From positions 1-6,052 of the forward strand of contig JAQGJO010000488.1 in assembly GCA_028290595.1 (NCBI GenBank): 6,052 nucleotides of DNA, read 5' to 3'. The DNA is from Hyphomicrobiales bacterium (lineage in GTDB: Bacteria > Pseudomonadota > Alphaproteobacteria > Rhizobiales > Beijerinckiaceae). This document shows, in pieces, positions 1-6,052 of the stretch (position 1 is the first letter of the stretch; every line of letters starts with the position of its first letter). The position numbers and the translations under genes are program-made. The notes under the pieces were generated by a model. It did no database searches, was not told the DNA's origin, and saw only the letters and a program-made list of their open reading frames with translations.

Positions 1-498
1 GGCCTGACCGTCGAGATCGGCAATACCGACGCCGAAGGGCGGCTGATTCTGTGCGACGCGCTGGCGCTCGCCGATGAGGAAGAGCCGGACATGCTGTTCG
101 ATTTCGCCACGTTGACGGGGGCCGCCCGCGTCGCACTGGGGCCGGATCTGCCGCCGTTCTATTGCACCGACGAGGCGCTTGCCGAAACCATCTCGCGCAA
201 AGGCTTCGCGGTCATGGACCCGGTCTGGCGGCTGCCGCTATGGGACCCCTACGACGCCATGCTCGACAGCAAGATCGCGTCGCTGAACAATGTGTCGAGC
301 GGCCCGTTTGCCGGCTCGATCACGGCAGCGCTGTTTCTGCGCCGTTTCGTCGCCAAAGCGCGGGCCTGGGCGCATTTCGACATTTATGGCTGGAACCCCT
401 CGACCAAGCCCGGACGTCCCGAGGGCGGCGAAATCCAGGCGGCCCGTCTGCTTTTCGGCATGCTTGAAGAGCGATACGGCACAAAGCCGCGCAAATGA
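1..498 (+). CDS. Leucyl aminopeptidase family (M17), C-terminal part
   Basis: This is the 3' part of a gene whose start lies left of the window; 165 residues are visible before the TGA. M17 enzymes are cytoplasmic two-metal aminopeptidases that remove N-terminal residues from peptides. The reading frame opens with the family signature NTDAEGR at visible residues 8-14: Asp10 and Glu12 correspond to metal ligands and Arg14 to the catalytic arginine of E. coli PepA. Further family blocks follow in order: FDFATLTGA, WRLPLWDPY, a SGPFAGSITAALFL stretch matching the PepA GGAITA region, and WAHFDIYGW. The tail GWNPSTKPGRPEGGE differs from E. coli PepA but keeps the fold. No frameshift is seen. About 95 bases separate it from the MarR gene. 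The NlpC/P60 peptidase two genes on suggests a shared role in peptide or muropeptide turnover, which is inference. The exact paralogue name (pepA or other) cannot be set from the C-terminus alone. Confidence 0.95.
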   Translation, partial: GLTVEIGNTDAEGRLILCDALALADEEEPDMLFDFATLTGAARVALGPDLPPFYCTDEALAETISRKGFAVMDPVWRLPLWDPYDAMLDSKIASLNNVSSGPFAGSITAALFLRRFVAKARAWAHFDIYGWNPSTKPGRPEGGEIQAARLLFGMLEERYGTKPRK

Positions 499-564: not shown

Positions 565-593
565 CCGGACCCGAAACAATTTTGCATCGCGAG

Positions 594-953
594 ATGGCCG
601 CGGAACTCAAACAATCCCAATCCCTGCGCCTGCTGCATGACGTCTCGCTGGATCTGGTGCGCGAATGCAAGCCCGACGATGCGGCCGACTTCACGCTGCG
701 GCAGTTGACGATCCTGCTGACGGTTTATCTCGAGCAGCCGCCGCATACAGTGCGCGGCCTGGCGGCCAAGCTGGCCGTCACCAAGCCGGTGATCACCCGG
801 GCGCTCGACAGCCTCGGCAAGCTCGGCATTCTGACGCGCAAGCGCGATCCCGCCGACAAGCGCAATGTCATCATCCAGCGCACGGTCAAGGGTGCGCTCT
901 ATGTCGAATCCCTCGGTGATCTCGTGATCCGAAAGATGCGGGCGCTGCAATGA
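594..953 (+). CDS. MarR-type winged helix-turn-helix regulator
   Basis: The product is a 119-residue DNA-binding regulator. The helix-turn-helix is at about residues 51-76 (HTVRGLAAKLAVTKPVITRALDSL region) and the wing at about 80-97. Residues 88-100 follow the MarR-family pattern D-x-R-x4-I-x-x-T-x-x-G. MarR proteins bind DNA as dimers and usually repress nearby genes until a ligand or oxidant releases them; here the ligand is unknown. The protein is shorter than most MarR members (about 140-150 residues) and ends soon after the wing, so the C-terminal dimerisation helix must be short. It has one cysteine, Cys25. I chose the ATG at 594; an in-frame TTG at 582 would add four residues. Neither start has a clear Shine-Dalgarno. 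The stop overlaps the next gene's start as ATGA, pointing to co-transcription and coupled translation. The natural target is this small operon itself, which is inference. Confidence 0.88.
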   Translation: MAAELKQSQSLRLLHDVSLDLVRECKPDDAADFTLRQLTILLTVYLEQPPHTVRGLAAKLAVTKPVITRALDSLGKLGILTRKRDPADKRNVIIQRTVKGALYVESLGDLVIRKMRALQ

Positions 954-1846
954 CGACAGCGGACTGGAAATTGCCGGCAGGCTTTGATCGGCGCACGACG
1001 CCAGCGCGACCCGATCTCGCAGCGGCAGGGCTGCGCGGCGTTATCGCATCGGCACGCTACGTCGAGGGCCGGCTGATGCGTCTGGGCTGCGAAGCCGCGC
1101 CATTGCGCAAAGCCCCGGACGAGACCGTCACCTGGGACACGCAGGTTCTGTTTGGTGAAGATGTCCTGGTGTTCGATGAGGCGGAGGGCTGGGCCTGGGT
1201 GCAATTGCTGCAGGACGGCTATGTCGGCTATCTTCGCGCAACATCGCTGGCGCCGGCTCACACGCCGATCACGCACAAGGTCTCCGCCCCGCGCACGTTC
1301 GTTTATCCATCAGCCAACATGAAGCTGCCGCCAACCATGGCGCTGCCGCTTGGCGCGCGGGTCGCCATCGAACATGATGACGGCACGTTTGCGCAGGCGC
1401 AAGGGCTTGGCTTCATCTGGTCCAGACATCTTTGTGCGCATGAGTCTTACGAAAATGACTTCGTCGACGTGGCGCGGCGTTTCCTGTTCGCTCCCTATCT
1501 CTGGGGCGGGAAGACCAGCCTGGGTCTCGACTGTTCCGGCTTGATCCAGATTGCGCTGCAGGCTTGCGGCATCCCCTGCCCGCGCGATAGCGACATGATA
1601 GGCCGCGACGTCGGCCAGGCGCTCGACCCCGCCGCGGCGCTGGCTCATCCCAAACGCGGCGATCTGTTTTTCTGGCAGGGCCATGTCGGCATGATGAGCG
1701 ACGATAGAACGCTGCTGCACGCCAATGGCTTTCACATGCAGGTGGTGGAAGAGCCGCTTGCGCAAGCTGTCGCCCGCATCAAGGACAATAGCTTCGGCCT
1801 CGTCACCGGCGCGCGCAGGTTCGAGACGCTTCCGCGTATTGCTTAA
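950..1846 (+). CDS. NlpC/P60 (C40) cysteine peptidase with two SH3-like domains
   Basis: The protein has 298 residues. Its N-terminus has no signal peptide or membrane segment, so it should be cytoplasmic. Two bacterial SH3-like domains can be read at about residues 38-102 and 107-163, followed by the NlpC/P60 domain at about 170-290. The catalytic triad is visible: Cys195 in LDCSG, His245 in GHVGMM and His257 in LLHANG. The YLWGG at 183-187 and PRDS at 211-214 are typical of the family. The SH3-SH3-NlpC order resembles YkfC of Bacillus, which cuts after L-Ala-gamma-D-Glu in cell-wall peptides. A cytoplasmic location and a neighbouring aminopeptidase favour a muropeptide-recycling role over wall cleavage; this is inference from family and context. 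The start overlaps the MarR stop by four bases (ATGA) and has only a weak ribosome site, consistent with coupled translation. The gene ends in TAA inside a TTAA shared with the convergent neighbour. Confidence 0.93.
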   Translation: MTTADWKLPAGFDRRTTPARPDLAAAGLRGVIASARYVEGRLMRLGCEAAPLRKAPDETVTWDTQVLFGEDVLVFDEAEGWAWVQLLQDGYVGYLRATSLAPAHTPITHKVSAPRTFVYPSANMKLPPTMALPLGARVAIEHDDGTFAQAQGLGFIWSRHLCAHESYENDFVDVARRFLFAPYLWGGKTSLGLDCSGLIQIALQACGIPCPRDSDMIGRDVGQALDPAAALAHPKRGDLFFWQGHVGMMSDDRTLLHANGFHMQVVEEPLAQAVARIKDNSFGLVTGARRFETLPRIA

Positions 1847-2691
1847 GGCTGACTTGTCTGGCCGGACCAGGCCTCGTCCTTGACGCGCAGGAAGGTGCGC
1901 AAAAGACGCCGCAGTGAAATGACGCCTTGCTGGCTGCCCGCGCGGAAGCTCGCGTGCGTCGGATTGCCATTCATGAACCCTGCGCCATAACCAGCGACGA
2001 CGCCAAGCATGGCAATGCGCAAACCGATCCGGCGGGCGACAATAAGCTCGGGAATGAACGAATGCCCGATCACATCCGCGCCGAGCGTTCGCGCTACTTT
2101 CACTTCCGCCACGGTAGCGAACGTCAGGCCCGGGAACCACATCATCACCGCGTCCTGAAAGCTCACGCCGGCGCTGATGGTGGCGCGTCGCAACCGCCGC
2201 TGCAGCCTGGGATCGTAAGCCTCGGCCAACGACATGAAACCGCCTTCGCTCGCGGCGCCGACGAGCGGATTGAGCCCGCTCAAATTGATGTGATCGATCA
2301 CCGAAATAATATGTCCAGGTACGATATCAGCATTCACCGAGGTCACGCCTGTGGCCATCACGAGTGTGGTGCATCCTAGAACGGTCAGGGTTTCAAACGG
2401 CACGGCCATCGAATTGAGAACGCCGGTATCGGAGTAGGAGCCATAGCCGCGCAGAAAGGCGACGCGTGCGCCTTCCAGCACTCCGATGGTGAGGACGCCC
2501 TCATTCTGGGACGGCTCGGACTTCACCGGAAACCCCGGCAAATCGCGAAAATGGAAGCTGTGCACGTCCTGCAAGCCTTCCATGAGCCCTTCAAGCCCAT
2601 GGCCAAGCAAGACCGCGATCGCCACCGGATCAGCGCCGCAGACAGACTGAATATGTTCGACTGCAAGATCCAGATCGCTTTTGTCGACCAA
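1843..2691 (-). CDS. Purine nucleoside phosphorylase-like protein with degenerate active site
   Basis: The product has 282 residues, the usual length of trimeric (PNP/MTAP-type) nucleoside phosphorylases, and shares their backbone blocks: LLGHGLEGL at 28-36, DHINLSGLNPL at 133-143, AYD at 158-160, FATVAE at 191-196, LGADVIGHS at 203-211 and PELIVARRIGLR at 214-225. Compared with human PNP recalled from memory, the functional residues are mostly replaced. Ser33 of GSGLG is His31, the GRFHMYEG loop reads RGYGSYSDTG (His86 lost), TNAAGG reads ATGVTSV, base-binding Glu201 is Ala192, Met219 is His210 and Asn243 is Gly. Ser220 and Phe200 are kept. The frame is intact, so it looks expressed but unlikely to do normal phosphorolysis of inosine or guanosine. 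It may bind another ligand or act as a regulatory or structural pseudoenzyme. The start is TTG with a good upstream ribosome site. Automated annotation would probably call it punA/PNP; I would not. Confidence 0.85.
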   Translation of the reverse strand: MVDKSDLDLAVEHIQSVCGADPVAIAVLLGHGLEGLMEGLQDVHSFHFRDLPGFPVKSEPSQNEGVLTIGVLEGARVAFLRGYGSYSDTGVLNSMAVPFETLTVLGCTTLVMATGVTSVNADIVPGHIISVIDHINLSGLNPLVGAASEGGFMSLAEAYDPRLQRRLRRATISAGVSFQDAVMMWFPGLTFATVAEVKVARTLGADVIGHSFIPELIVARRIGLRIAMLGVVAGYGAGFMNGNPTHASFRAGSQQGVISLRRLLRTFLRVKDEAWSGQTSQP

Positions 2692-2696
2692 ATTCG

Positions 2697-2702
2697 CCCT
2701 CC
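2697..2702 (-). promoter_or_regulatory. Ribosome binding site fixing the TTG start of the PNP-like gene
   Basis: On the minus strand GGAGGG lies five bases before TTG at 2691. A nearby minus-strand ATG, just upstream of the GGAGGG, is out of frame with the PNP-like protein. The spacing and the strong match to the anti-Shine-Dalgarno make TTG the best start, even though it is a rare start codon. Confidence 0.7.
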
Positions 2703-2967
2703 ATAAAGCGCAAGCCTGCCCGGGCGCCGCGGATTGTTGCCCGACAAATCGTCAATCTGGTCAAAAAACAGACCGGATCCATTCCCGGCCGTACGTCCAG
2801 CAGATGTCGACAGGACGGCAAGCAAGAATGCCTCATCCGCTCGAAATGCATATCTTGATTTGCGTAAAATATCCATCAGGCTTCTGCGGCGGCATCTACA
2901 TTGCTTCGCCTCCGGACTTGCCGTCTCCGGCAGACATGTCACACTGCGTTATGTTGGAGGAAGTCGG
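2703..2967. other. Divergent intergenic region
   Basis: These 265 bases separate the PNP-like gene (leftward) from the DUF1194 gene (rightward), so both promoters should lie here. I see no convincing consensus promoter for either. The minus strand has a TTGACC near 2760-2765 with only a poor AACAAT 20 bases on. The plus strand has a relatively AT-rich patch at about 2843-2873, including TAAAAT at 2865-2870, but no good -35 element. A small stem of five pairs (TGCCG/CGGCA, 2919-2932) sits in the probable leader of the DUF1194 gene. The DUF1194 reading frame stays open through this stretch from 2734, but the translation is arginine-rich without recognisable features, and the good ribosome site is at 2956. 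Confidence 0.5.
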
Positions 2968-3831
2968 ATGACCCGTCGAACTTTCATCAGCCTGCGAAGG
3001 CGCATTCTATCCAGTGTACTGGCCGGCGTACTGGTTCTTGCAGCCTGCCCTGTGTTTCTAACGCCGTCGTCTGCAAAGGATGGCGCGGTTGCCGTTGACG
3101 TCGAGCTGGTGCTGGCCGTCGACGTTTCCTATTCGATGGACCCGGACGAGCAGCGCATTCAGCGCGACGGCTACGCCCAGGCACTGACATCGCCGCAATT
3201 CCTCAATGCACTCAAGTCGGGCACCCATGGCAAGATCGCGGTCATCTATGTTCAATGGGCGTCGTCGCTCGATCAGGATGTCCTGCTGCCGTGGACGATC
3301 ATCGATAGTCCGCAGAGCGCGCAGGCGGTCGCCGACAAGCTCGCCGAAGCGCCCTATCGCCGCGCCCAACGCACGTCGATCTCCGGCGCTATCGATTTCG
3401 CCGTCAAACAATTCGCCGACAACGGCTTCAACGGCGAGCGTCAGGTGATCGACGTCTCCGGCGACGGCACCAACAACAATGGTAGGCCCGTTGCGGCGGC
3501 GCGGGATGAAGCCGTGCAGCAGGGCATCACCATCAACGGTCTGCCCTTGCTGATCCGGCCATCGAACTACGGCTATTTCAACGATATCGCCAATCTCGAT
3601 GAATATTATGAGGATTGTGTCATCGGCGGCGTCGGCGCTTTTTCGATCCCGATCAAGGATCGAAGCAATTTCACCGAGGCGACACGGACCAAACTTGTGC
3701 TAGAAATCGCCGCGGCGCCACCGCCCGGCATCTTCGACGGAAGAGTCGCAATCGTTCCCGCGCAGGCGCGGGAGCCGCGCGTCAGTTGCCTTGTCGGCGA
3801 GAATATGTGGCGCAATCGCTGGGGCAATTGA
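2968..3831 (+). CDS. Exported DUF1194 protein, von Willebrand A-like fold
   Basis: The product has 287 residues and belongs to the DUF1194 family, common in alphaproteobacteria and of unknown function. The start is supported by GGAGG at 2956-2960, seven bases before the ATG. The N-terminus is an export signal: basic residues at 3-12, a hydrophobic core at about 13-31, then KDG. The end of the core holds LAAC (residues 24-27), a lipobox-like site that would give a lipoprotein with Cys27; signal peptidase I could instead cut after SSA (residue 36). TRRTFI at 2-7 is reminiscent of a Tat motif. The mature part is a von Willebrand A-like domain with the metal-site motif DVSYS at 52-56, a candidate threonine at 136 in RTSISGAI, and DVSGDG at 162-167. 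Such domains usually bind proteins through a divalent cation. Cys217 and Cys274 could form a disulfide. The ggt gene begins 21 bases after the stop, so the two are probably co-transcribed and both act outside the cytoplasm. The partner is unknown. Confidence 0.9.
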   Translation: MTRRTFISLRRRILSSVLAGVLVLAACPVFLTPSSAKDGAVAVDVELVLAVDVSYSMDPDEQRIQRDGYAQALTSPQFLNALKSGTHGKIAVIYVQWASSLDQDVLLPWTIIDSPQSAQAVADKLAEAPYRRAQRTSISGAIDFAVKQFADNGFNGERQVIDVSGDGTNNNGRPVAAARDEAVQQGITINGLPLLIRPSNYGYFNDIANLDEYYEDCVIGGVGAFSIPIKDRSNFTEATRTKLVLEIAAAPPPGIFDGRVAIVPAQAREPRVSCLVGENMWRNRWGN

Positions 3832-3852: not shown

Positions 3853-5601
3853 ATGGTCTTGAAGCATTTTCTGACACTGGCCGCGGGCCTTGGTCTCGTG
3901 GTCGGCGCCAGCGCGTCCCTTGCTCAAACGCGCGCGGTCGAACCGGCGCCGCCGATCATTGCCTACGATGCACGTGTGCTGCCGGTATTGGCGCGCAACG
4001 GCATGGTTGCCAGCCAGGAAGTGAAGGCATCCCGCGTCGGCACCGAGATTCTCAAACGAGGCGGAAACGCAGTCGACGCCGCCGTGGCCGTTGGCTTTGC
4101 ATTGGCGGCAACCTTGCCGCAGGCCGGCAATCTCGGCGGCGGCGGTTTCATGCTGGTGCATCTGGCAAAAGAAAAAAAGACCATCGCCATCGACTATCGT
4201 GAGGCAGCGCCGGCCGACACGCCCAAGGATGTGTTCCTGGATGACAAGGGCGATTTCGTGCCCGAGCGCTCGCAGTCGAGCGGGCTTGGTGTCGGCGTCC
4301 CCGGCACGGTTGCGGGTCTGATCCTGGCGCATCGCAAATACGGTTCCGGCAAACTGACTCTGGCGCAGCTCATCGCGCCGGCTATCGCACTTGCCCAGAA
4401 TGGATTCACGGTCGACGACGATCTGGCAGACTCGCTGCCCCGAGCCATGCGCCGTATGGGTCGCTATCCGTCGAGCCGTGCTATCTTCATGAAAGACGGG
4501 AATCCGCTTGGGCGCGGCGACACGCTTGTCCAGCGCGACCTGGCGAAATCGCTCGAACGGATCGCCAGCCGTGGCGCCGACGGATTCTACGACGGCGAGA
4601 CGGCTCAAAAGCTCGTCGCCGCGGTTCGTGCCTACGGCGGCCGTATGACGCTCGCCGACATGAAGGCGTACCATGCCATCGAACGCGAACCCGTGCGCGG
4701 AACGTATCGCGGCTGGGACATCGTCTCGATGCCGCCGCCATCGTCGGGCGGCGTCCACTTGATCGAACTGCTCAACATTCTCGAGGGATGGCCGCTCAAG
4801 GAGATGGGCCAGAATTCCGCGCAGACCATTCATCTGATGGCCGAGGCAATGAAGCGTGCTTATGCGGATCGCGCTGAGTATATGGGCGATCCGGACTACG
4901 TAAAAATGCCGATCGCCGGCCTGCTCTCCAAGCAGTATGCGCAAAAGCTGCGCGAGCAGATCTCGCCCGATAAAGCCATGCCGTCGAACGAGATCAAGGC
5001 GGGAAATCCCCTGCCCTATGAGAGCGATCAGACGACCCATTATTCGGTTGTCGATCGCGACGGCAACGCCGTCTCCAACACCTATACATTGAATTTTTCA
5101 TACGGCCTTGGACTTGTCGCCGACGGCACAGGCATCATGCTGAACAATGAGCTTGATGATTTTGCCGCCAAGGCCGGTGCCATGAATGCCTATGGCCTGC
5201 TTGGCGGCGCCGCCAATGCGCCTGGCCCAAACAAGCGGCCTTTGTCATCGATGAGTCCGACGATGGTGTTCAAGAACGGCGAACTCGAAATCGTCACCGG
5301 ATCGCCAGGCGGCTCGCGCATCATCACGATCGTGCTGCAGATCGTGCTGAACATTCTCGATCACGGGATGAATGCCGCGGAGGCGAGCGAGGCAGTGCGC
5401 ATCCACCATCAATGGCAGCCGGATGAATTGCGCGTCGAACGCGGATTGTCGATCGACACTATCAAGCTGCTGGAAGCCAAGGGCCACGATGTGCGTGTCG
5501 GCTCGACCTTCGGTTCGGCGCAGACGATCCATCGTCTCAACGGACTGTTGATGGGCGCCAGCGATTCACGCCAGCGCGGCGGCGGAGCGGTCGGCTATTG
5601 A
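3853..5601 (+). CDS. ggt: Gamma-glutamyltransferase precursor
   Basis: This is a complete 582-residue gamma-glutamyltransferase, the enzyme that hydrolyses glutathione and other gamma-glutamyl compounds or passes the gamma-glutamyl group to amino acids, usually in the periplasm. A signal peptide spans about residues 1-25, with likely cleavage in ASLA-Q. The precursor cuts itself before the catalytic Thr394 (in ESDQTTHYSV) into large and small subunits. Other key residues match E. coli Ggt: Arg116 in DYREAAP, Asp436 in NNELDDF, Ser465-Ser466 in PLSSMSPT, and the GSPGGSR loop at 483-489. The lid-loop region (about 438-452) is present, as in E. coli. The C-terminus HHQWQPDELRVE...MGAS also fits. 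All catalytic residues are intact, so it should be active. The ribosome site is weak (GTGAG just ahead of the ATG), which with the 21-base gap suggests it relies on the upstream DUF1194 gene for expression. A second, nearly identical 3' end lies on the other strand at 5823. Confidence 0.97.
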   Translation: MVLKHFLTLAAGLGLVVGASASLAQTRAVEPAPPIIAYDARVLPVLARNGMVASQEVKASRVGTEILKRGGNAVDAAVAVGFALAATLPQAGNLGGGGFMLVHLAKEKKTIAIDYREAAPADTPKDVFLDDKGDFVPERSQSSGLGVGVPGTVAGLILAHRKYGSGKLTLAQLIAPAIALAQNGFTVDDDLADSLPRAMRRMGRYPSSRAIFMKDGNPLGRGDTLVQRDLAKSLERIASRGADGFYDGETAQKLVAAVRAYGGRMTLADMKAYHAIEREPVRGTYRGWDIVSMPPPSSGGVHLIELLNILEGWPLKEMGQNSAQTIHLMAEAMKRAYADRAEYMGDPDYVKMPIAGLLSKQYAQKLREQISPDKAMPSNEIKAGNPLPYESDQTTHYSVVDRDGNAVSNTYTLNFSYGLGLVADGTGIMLNNELDDFAAKAGAMNAYGLLGGAANAPGPNKRPLSSMSPTMVFKNGELEIVTGSPGGSRIITIVLQIVLNILDHGMNAAEASEAVRIHHQWQPDELRVERGLSIDTIKLLEAKGHDVRVGSTFGSAQTIHRLNGLLMGASDSRQRGGGAVGY

Positions 5602-5650
5602 ATAAAGGGGGGCAGTCGGGCTTAGGCAGTCGAGCCATTCTACCAGACGC

Positions 5651-5692
5651 CCCCGTCCTTCGAGACGGCGCTACGCGCCTCCTCAGGATGAG
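5651..5692 (-). repeat. Palindromic intergenic repeat, copy A
   Basis: Read on the minus strand this unit begins CTCATCCTGAGGAG and ends GTCTCGAAGGACG, matching copy B in both conserved arms. Its inner stem is GGCGC/GCGCC (5667-5671 with 5675-5679) around a three-base loop. Outer arms pair as ATCCT with AGGAC-type sequence, giving an imperfect long hairpin. This layout resembles dispersed palindromic elements that I recall as frequent in Bradyrhizobium and Rhodopseudomonas genomes; the family name is not known to me. Confidence 0.85.
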
Positions 5693-5726
5693 AGCTCCTT
5701 TGCAAATTGCAGTAAACCATCAGAAG

Positions 5727-5773
5727 CCCTCATCCTGAGGAGCACGCAAAGCGTGCGTCTCGAAGGACGAGGG
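5727..5773 (+). repeat. Palindromic intergenic repeat, copy B
   Basis: This 47-base unit runs from CCCTCATCCTGAGGAG to GTCTCGAAGGACGAGGG. The outer arms CCCTCATCCT and AGGACGAGGG pair with one mismatch, and the inner stem GCACGC/GCGTGC (5742-5747 with 5751-5756) closes an AAA loop. It is the same element as copy A but in opposite orientation, 34 bases away. The two units together could also pair with each other into one larger hairpin across 5651-5773. Confidence 0.88.
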
Positions 5774-5822
5774 CGACAAGCAGCAGTTTCCAACCAAGGC
5801 ACTGCCTACTGCCTCAGTTTTC

Positions 5823-6052
5823 TCAATAGCCGACCGCTCCGCCGCCGCGCTGGCGCGAATCGCTGGCGCCCATCAGCAGGCCGTCGAGACGATGGATCGT
5901 TTGCGTCGAGCCAAAGGTCGAGCCGACACGCACATCGTGGCCCTTGCCTTCCAGCAGCTTGATCGTGTCGATCGACAATCCGCGTTCGACGCGCAATTCA
6001 TCCGGCTGCCATTGATGGTGGATACGCACTGCCTCGCTCGCCTCTGCGGCAT
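5823..6052 (-). CDS. ggt: Second gamma-glutamyltransferase copy, C-terminal part
   Basis: This is the 3' end of a second ggt on the minus strand; the 5' part lies beyond the right edge. About 75 C-terminal residues are visible, open to the edge, beginning AAEASEAVRIHHQWQPDE and ending GGGAVGY before TGA. They match residues 508-582 of the complete upstream copy with only three changes: Ala542 to Gly, Ala556 to Thr and Asn563 to Asp. The visible frame has no stop or shift. The catalytic threonine and signal peptide are outside the window, so activity cannot be judged. The tail-to-tail arrangement with the first copy suggests an inverted duplication. Roughly nine of about twelve base differences are silent, which argues the copy has been under protein-level selection rather than decaying. 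Confidence 0.93.
   Translation of the reverse strand, partial: AAEASEAVRIHHQWQPDELRVERGLSIDTIKLLEGKGHDVRVGSTFGSTQTIHRLDGLLMGASDSRQRGGGAVGY

Follow-up and report, generated by a model that had tools for sequence, protein, structure and literature searches.

A purine nucleoside phosphorylase orthologue with a largely replaced active site at a conserved locus of a Hyphomicrobiales bacterium

The plant NP-like vegetative and bark storage proteins serve a use other than nucleoside salvage (PMC3751785). The human purine nucleoside phosphorylase (PNP) variant E201Q/N243D was engineered and is active on adenosine-based prodrugs (PMC2799393). A limited full-text search over titles and abstract openings, which addressed PNP as a pseudoenzyme, as a moonlighting, catalytically inactive or storage protein, or in Beijerinckiaceae, found no paper on the case described here.

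We analyzed a 6,052-nucleotide stretch of DNA from a Hyphomicrobiales bacterium, hereafter the window. It contains a gene for a PNP-fold protein of 282 amino acids with an altered active site (1843..2691, minus strand, read from a TTG at 2691 to a stop codon at 1843), and a ribosome-site-like GGAGGG (2697..2702, minus strand) lies 5 nt ahead of the TTG. The initial annotation had described a full-length intact frame with a good ribosome site at these coordinates; the coordinates are right and the frame is intact, but the minus strand had been missed. On the plus strand, the gene is surrounded by the 3′ part of an M17 leucyl aminopeptidase gene (1..498), a MarR regulator (582..953), an SH3 plus NlpC/P60 protein (950..1846), which is convergent with the altered gene and overlaps it by 4 bp, a divergent DUF1194 (vWA-like) ORF (2734..3831), and a gamma-glutamyltransferase (GGT) gene (3853..5601). 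The DUF1194 domain covers only residues 120-327, indicating that the true start is probably farther into the ORF. In addition, 248 nt around the GGT gene end (5372-5619) recur inverted at the window end (5805-6052) with 93% complementarity and coding differences, which represents either a second GGT arranged tail to tail or a chimera at the end of the contig. Between the GGT copies, at 5648-5775, lie two nested pairs of palindromes (CCTTCGAGACG..., CTCATCCTGAGGAG...) that resemble the short palindromic repeats frequent in Rhizobiales. In the related locus L001, a deoB match lies directly beyond the GGT end.

The family assignment was analyzed using profile and structure comparisons. PF01048 was the sole Pfam match of the window protein (75.2 bits against a cut-off of 25.1). 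It matched 11 NCBIfam PNP and MTAP-type models, every one under its curated cut-off, including TIGR01697 (159.1 of 197.1 bits), TIGR01698 (168.6 of 302.6), NF006054 (167.1 of 218), and the MTAP model (52.1 of 274.85). The best solved relative by sequence was the Agrobacterium PNP 4uc0 (E 2.8e-51). An AlphaFold2 monomer predicted from 58 sequences had a mean pLDDT of 88.5, falling to 71 in blocks 81-90 and 141-150, and this model matched 4uc0 in Foldseek with E 2.4e-27 and a TM of 0.91 by target length, which corresponds to a predicted PNP monomer fold. The best 50 of 1346 Foldseek PDB matches were all PNPs or xanthosine phosphorylases. The D133-H134, P142-L143, and Y159-D160 columns, which bear on a homotrimer with a shared active site, were retained, and the window protein may likewise form a trimer. 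The strong trimeric-PNP fold signatures noticed earlier are supported by the predicted monomer.

Next, 120 listed homologues (the best 120 of 646) were aligned with 4uc0 and 1yqq by MAFFT to compare the pocket. Reference positions and residue roles follow human PNP, in which the equivalents of positions 31, 83, 85, 87, and 114 hold phosphate and ribose. Compared with 4uc0, the phosphate/ribose region carried H31 for S33 (codon at 2599..2601), Y83 for R84 and S85 for H86 (Y83-G84-S85, 2437..2445), S87 for Y88, and T114-G-V-T117 (2341..2352) for N115-A-A-G118. On the base side, A192 (2116..2118) replaced E201, H210 and F212 replaced M219 and T221 on either side of S211 (2056..2064), A233 replaced T242, and G234 (1990..1992) replaced N243. 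F200 (F191), S220 (S211), and H257 (H246, 1954..1956) were retained; all of these codons were placed by alignment on the minus strand. In all, 11 of the 13 scored pocket positions were unlike normal PNP, confirming that the active site is almost wholly substituted as the initial annotation had claimed. Of the phosphate-site residues S33, R84, H86, and S220, S211 alone remained, the other three being H31, Y83, and S85, and both purine-recognition residues, E201 and N243, were replaced (A192 and G234). The catalytic residues have not moved to shifted positions, because the HMMER alignment to 4uc0, the check proposed earlier for such a shift, was gap-free at the motifs. Since nearly all catalytic residues are replaced, the database label of the window protein is probably wrong. 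The warning that a routine PNP label would mislead was also justified: the NCBIfam PNP cut-offs are missed, yet the clade members P0002 and P0008 are named 'purine-nucleoside phosphorylase' by their sources, and this label should not be propagated for the window's clade.

This clade comprised P0001-P0009 among the matches listed, where P0001 is the window protein, at 68-100% identity and with one fragment. Its members came from Roseiarcaceae bacterium H3SJ34-1 (L001, 92%), Rhizobiales bacterium 62-17 (L002, 70%), unclassified Beijerinckia, and metagenomes. L001 and L002 were the only loci found in the genome collection with the clade patterns, and no further member was found among the best 120 of 126 matches of a profile search in the same database (E <= 1e-60). 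A192, H210, S211, F212, G234, and H246 (positions 201, 219, 220, 221, 243, and 257) were invariant in 10/10 full-length clade members including the window, and positions 33 (H/R), 84 (Y/H), 86 (S/T/D), 88 (S/A/N), and 115 (T/N/C/A) were variable. A check proposed earlier, the recurrence of five substituted residues, was thus answered in part: A192, H210, and G234 recurred in all ten, and H31 (H or R) and S85 (S, T or D) did not. The triple A201+H219+G243 was absent outside the clade among 255 aligned proteins and 72 loci, and the A201/G243 pair was confined to the clade (8/254 proteins). Invariant clade columns amounted to 143/282 overall and 9/16 in the pocket, indicating that the pocket is without special constraint of either kind. 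The best 14 relatives by score outside the clade (P0010-P0023) had all seven key residues normal, defined as R84, H86, E201, M219, S220, N243, and H257. Homologues with a normal site, raised earlier as a counter-argument, therefore do exist in a sense; they show the origin of the protein and leave the reading of its altered site standing.

Conservation of the pocket was then compared with that of the rest of the protein. The reference comprised 43 loci selected for a high score irrespective of their residues; five of them have one or two key residues changed. In this reference, conservation was 0.92 for the pocket and 0.54 for the rest, whereas in the window's clade it was 0.78 and 0.77, indicating that the pocket excess was gone. 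Columns fixed at 90% in the reference were counted as lost or kept in pocket and other columns and compared by Fisher's test, whose p values are a guide only because columns are not independent. The window's clade lost 10/13 pocket and 19/64 other columns (p 0.0032). Similar biases were observed for three sets of altered proteins in other lineages, namely the Q84 group (8/13 and 12/64, p 0.0033), P0037/41/45/L064 (7/13 and 9/64, p 0.0039), and the E86/H88 group (6/13 and 11/64, p 0.032). The difference for the D243 group was not significant (6/13 and 13/63, p 0.077), and the control P0010-P0023 lost 0/13 pocket and 2/64 other columns.

Selection on the altered gene was estimated as dN/dS by the Nei-Gojobori method. 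Between the window and L001, the altered gene showed 0.114, and its neighbours showed 0.070 (M17, 165 codons), 0.044 (MarR), 0.169 (NlpC), 0.205 (DUF1194), and 0.069 (GGT). Between the window and L002 the value was 0.199 against 0.128-0.300 for the neighbours, and between L001 and L002 it was 0.205. In both window comparisons, the value of the altered gene lay between the lowest and highest of its five neighbours, indicating that the gene is not decaying, and its frame was intact in the window, L001, and L002. Eight changed-pocket pairs of other lineages (L058/59, L047/53, L047/49, L053/49, L048/55, L050/54, L066/67, and L070/71) gave 0.00-0.20. Because three near-normal PNP pairs (L074 with L075, L076, and L077) gave lower values of 0.015-0.072, the altered proteins are under genuine constraint, yet a looser one than these. 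Loss of catalytic residues is combined with purifying selection on the gene, as expected of a PNP-derived pseudoenzyme. Together with the residues A201, H219, and G243, replaced alike in 11/11 clade rows (one a fragment), these values uphold the initial annotation in rejecting a decaying gene.

The gene order M17-MarR-NlpC/P60-[PNP]-DUF1194-GGT was common to the window, L001, L002, and L072. The PNP of L072 was ordinary, being normal at all seven key residues and at 12 of the 13 scored positions. At this locus cdd separated DUF1194 from PNP, and deoC and deoA separated PNP from NlpC. None of cdd, deoC, and deoA was found at the three clade loci. The window gene is thus the orthologue of an ordinary PNP, and the synteny disfavours a transferred paralogue. 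Since the gene order predates the pocket change, the neighbours give no clue to a new role, and were of little use as a guide to it. Among the 12 high-scoring long-flank loci L072-L083, a single locus had all five neighbours, L081 had four, L074-L077 had three each, L083 had one, and L073, L078, L079, L080, and L082 had none. Of the loci L044-L071, all with changed pockets, 8/28 lacked all five neighbours, some being cut by contig ends. These counts indicate a gene order that is well established for L072 and the window's clade without being universal.

We further searched whole genomes for partner genes. In the clade genomes G001 and G002, no second PNP of the trimeric type was found, and nucleoside hydrolase, deoC, and cdd were absent from both; deoA was absent in G002 and represented in G001 by weak matches alone (128 bits or less against a cut-off of 571), where single gene absences are weak evidence because genome completeness is not given. 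A separate gene of G001 passed the MTAP cut-offs, and G002 had a second match at 64.5 bits. H3SJ34-1 also encodes a divergent PF01048 protein (L039:1381-2166), which was DeoD/Udp/MTAP-like at 46 bits or less and far under the DeoD cut-offs. The ribose-1-phosphate mutase gene deoB was retained in G001 and G002. Retention of deoB is a hint only and weakened as proof of activity, because it was also retained in 8/56 genomes having neither PNP nor deoA (of 199).

Of the 199 genomes of G001's family, 187 matched TIGR01697 at 1e-5. The best score was at least 240 bits in 104 genomes, 199-232 in 10, and 160-197 in 21, and the remaining 64 had no match or only matches under 92 bits, meaning that a PNP of this type was not found. 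Retention of PNP is therefore not mere inertia. In this order of score classes, deoA was present in 99/104, 8/10, 2/21, and 8/64 genomes, with 117 of 122 matching genomes counted and five having only weak matches (157 bits or less, including G001) left out; the nucleoside hydrolase PF01156 was present in 45/104, 1/10, 2/21, and 6/64. The pocket was read in 72 genomes chosen by high or low score and not at random (43/104, 9/10, and 20/21 genomes of the three upper score classes). Of the 13 positions, 0-1 were changed in 42 genomes, 5-11 in 30, and 2-4 in none. deoA occurred in 38/42 genomes with 0-1 changes, 4/5 with 5-6, 5/8 with 7-8, and 0/17 with at least 9; the nucleoside hydrolase occurred in 23/42, 1/5, 0/8, and 0/17, respectively. 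The contrasts between 0-1 and at least five changes, 38/42 against 9/30 for deoA (p 1.3e-7) and 23/42 against 1/30 for the hydrolase (p 2e-6), ignore kinship. As 9/30 genomes with at least five changes retain deoA, pocket change needs no pathway loss, and some altered PNPs coexist with an intact pyrimidine arm. Among the 21 altered genomes without deoA, deoC was found in 0/21, cdd in 5/21 with neither clade genome among them, and deoB in three (G001, G002, and G141). A DeoD-type substitute was not supported in these 21 genomes, with one weak match and none over the cut-off. Near-normal PNPs at L074-L077 had N243S as the sole scored change, and their genomes (G057, G017, G089, and G114) had a nucleoside hydrolase and no deoA. 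Of 150 genomes drawn from the order, 63 matched at 1e-30 and G001 alone was below the cut-off, indicating that, within this sample, altered PNPs with low scores seem restricted to the family.

The pocket was also altered independently elsewhere in the family. A tree built without 17 pocket columns contained 121 of 195 aligned rows, filtered for redundancy at 80% and for coverage, with W, P0009, and 1yqq left out. It required 8 changes between 74 rows in which the seven key residues were all normal and 40 rows in which at least three were changed; the 7 intermediate rows, with one or two changed, were uncounted. A single origin of all altered proteins was rejected when the 40 rows, a group defined by residues, were constrained to one clade (p-AU 8.6e-65). 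All key columns were present in 254 proteins, of which 84 had none of the seven changed and 138 had three or more, which is no census because the searches were seeded with altered proteins. In the E86/H88 group (L066-L069), deoA and cdd still adjoin the gene. The Q84 group (L050, L051, L054, and L062, including Rhodoblastus acidophilus P0078) carried R84Q, E201A/S/P, M219F/P, and N243H, and cdd was the sole partner beside the gene. The D243 group, mostly with R33 (L044, L045, L047-L049, L052, L053, L055, L056, and L058-L060), lacked cdd, deoC, and deoA beside the gene. D243 also occurred in named Methylosinus, Methylocystis, and Methylocapsa entries (P0119, P0122, P0124, P0130, P0140, P0142, P0169, P0174 from Methylocystis parvus, P0180, P0182, and P0201), and sources name the methanotroph D243 proteins PNP or phosphorylase. 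Because E201 was retained in 113 and R33 in 106 of 115 D243 rows, with positions 86, 219, and 257 varying, the methanotroph D243 clade may be an enzyme with a changed base preference more than a dead pocket. These parallel cases, the orthology by synteny, and the loss of partner genes were missed by the initial annotation.

Its alternative of a pseudoenzyme or a protein with a new ligand, as opposed to decay, still stands, with both halves remaining. The gene is best seen as an in-place descendant of the ordinary trimeric PNP of a cdd-PNP-deoC-deoA nucleoside-catabolism cluster. In the window's clade, the partner genes were lost, as seen in two genomes, the residues of the phosphate site and of purine recognition (E201 and N243) were replaced, and purifying selection preserved the protein. 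The reading that we favor, with confidence just short of even, is that this protein gave up phosphorolysis and was kept for a non-catalytic binding or structural role. Splitting of inosine and guanosine would most likely have been abandoned. The fold may then have been reused as a binding or structural protein, possibly with another small ligand held at the base side, since A192, H210, S211, F212, G234, and H246 are fixed there while 31, 85, 87, and 114 drift. The fixed pocket residues could equally form a new substrate site. It is quite conceivable, although less than evenly probable, that the protein is still an enzyme, a nucleoside phosphorylase or nucleosidase in which A192 and G234 enlarge the base site for an unusual base, H/R31 holds phosphate, and the product feeds deoB. 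A retained deoB would fit an enzyme still yielding ribose 1-phosphate, H31/R31 might partly stand in for R84 in phosphate holding, and the S220 and H257 equivalents are retained, all of which count against a non-catalytic protein. The fixation of A192, H210, F212, and G234 in 10/10 clade members points the same way, as do the related family clade with E201 and D243, which resembles a specificity change, and human PNP E201Q/N243D, which gains adenosine-type substrates (PMC2799393). Nevertheless, positions 31, 83, 85, 87, and 114 vary even inside the clade, cdd, deoC, and deoA are gone from the three loci, and deoB persists in 8/56 genomes without PNP and deoA and could be used by the other DeoD/Udp-like protein of G001. 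Overall, non-catalytic binding is slightly more likely than a new substrate.

A functionally ordinary PNP relying on atypical residues, with H/R31 for R84 and other contacts for E201/N243, would agree with the full fold similarity and the ancestral PNP locus. Such an enzyme is improbable, given that 11/13 scored pocket positions are changed, that the A201/G243 pair occurs only in this clade (8/254 proteins), and that both clade genomes lack deoC and cdd, with deoA absent or weakly matched. More improbable still is a gene in the course of disappearing since nucleoside catabolism was lost, with a product that folds only because that loss is recent: 64/199 family genomes have no PNP of this type, the stem branch is long (0.5-0.63 changes per column), and dN/dS exceeds that of the near-normal PNP pairs, but the values of 0.11-0.20 lie inside the range of M17, MarR, NlpC, DUF1194, and GGT, A192/H210/G234 are common to 10/10 full-length clade members down to 68% identity, and the frame is intact at all three clade loci.

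For the family as a whole, we suggest tentatively, and with clear doubt, that a housekeeping PNP was converted in place several times, with different residue sets, to selected non-salvage proteins in G001's family (Beijerinckia, Rhodoblastus, Methylosinus, Methylocystis, and Roseiarcaceae kin). If so, these proteins would form a natural series that begins with a working PNP and ends with a pseudoenzyme or a novel enzyme, and the PNP trimer would have a second, older function that outlasts catalysis. If the altered proteins are dead yet selected, many natural 'mutants' would be available from which to infer this older function. If they are new enzymes, the substrate given in many PNP entries of Methylocystis, Methylosinus, Rhodoblastus, and their relatives would be wrong, and a reaction that does not run may have entered the metabolic models of these methanotrophs and phototrophs.

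Compared with known systems, the window protein is like trimeric PNPs (Agrobacterium 4uc0, human PNP, and E. coli XapA) in fold, length, and motif order, and its gene occupies the chromosomal place of the normal alphaproteobacterial PNP gene; it differs in that the phosphate- and base-site residues are replaced and in falling under the matched NCBIfam PNP cut-offs. MTA phosphorylase and 5′-methylthioinosine phosphorylase belong to the same superfamily, from which the protein differs by its score (52 bits against 274.85). In human PNP E201Q/N243D the base-recognition pair is changed as in the window protein, and the variant resembles the D243 clade and not the window's clade. The plant storage proteins (Populus BSP and WIN4) are likewise NP-like proteins in non-salvage use, a likeness by description and not by sequence (PMC3751785). 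The plant NP-like family grew by duplication, whereas the window case is a single bacterial orthologue altered in place.
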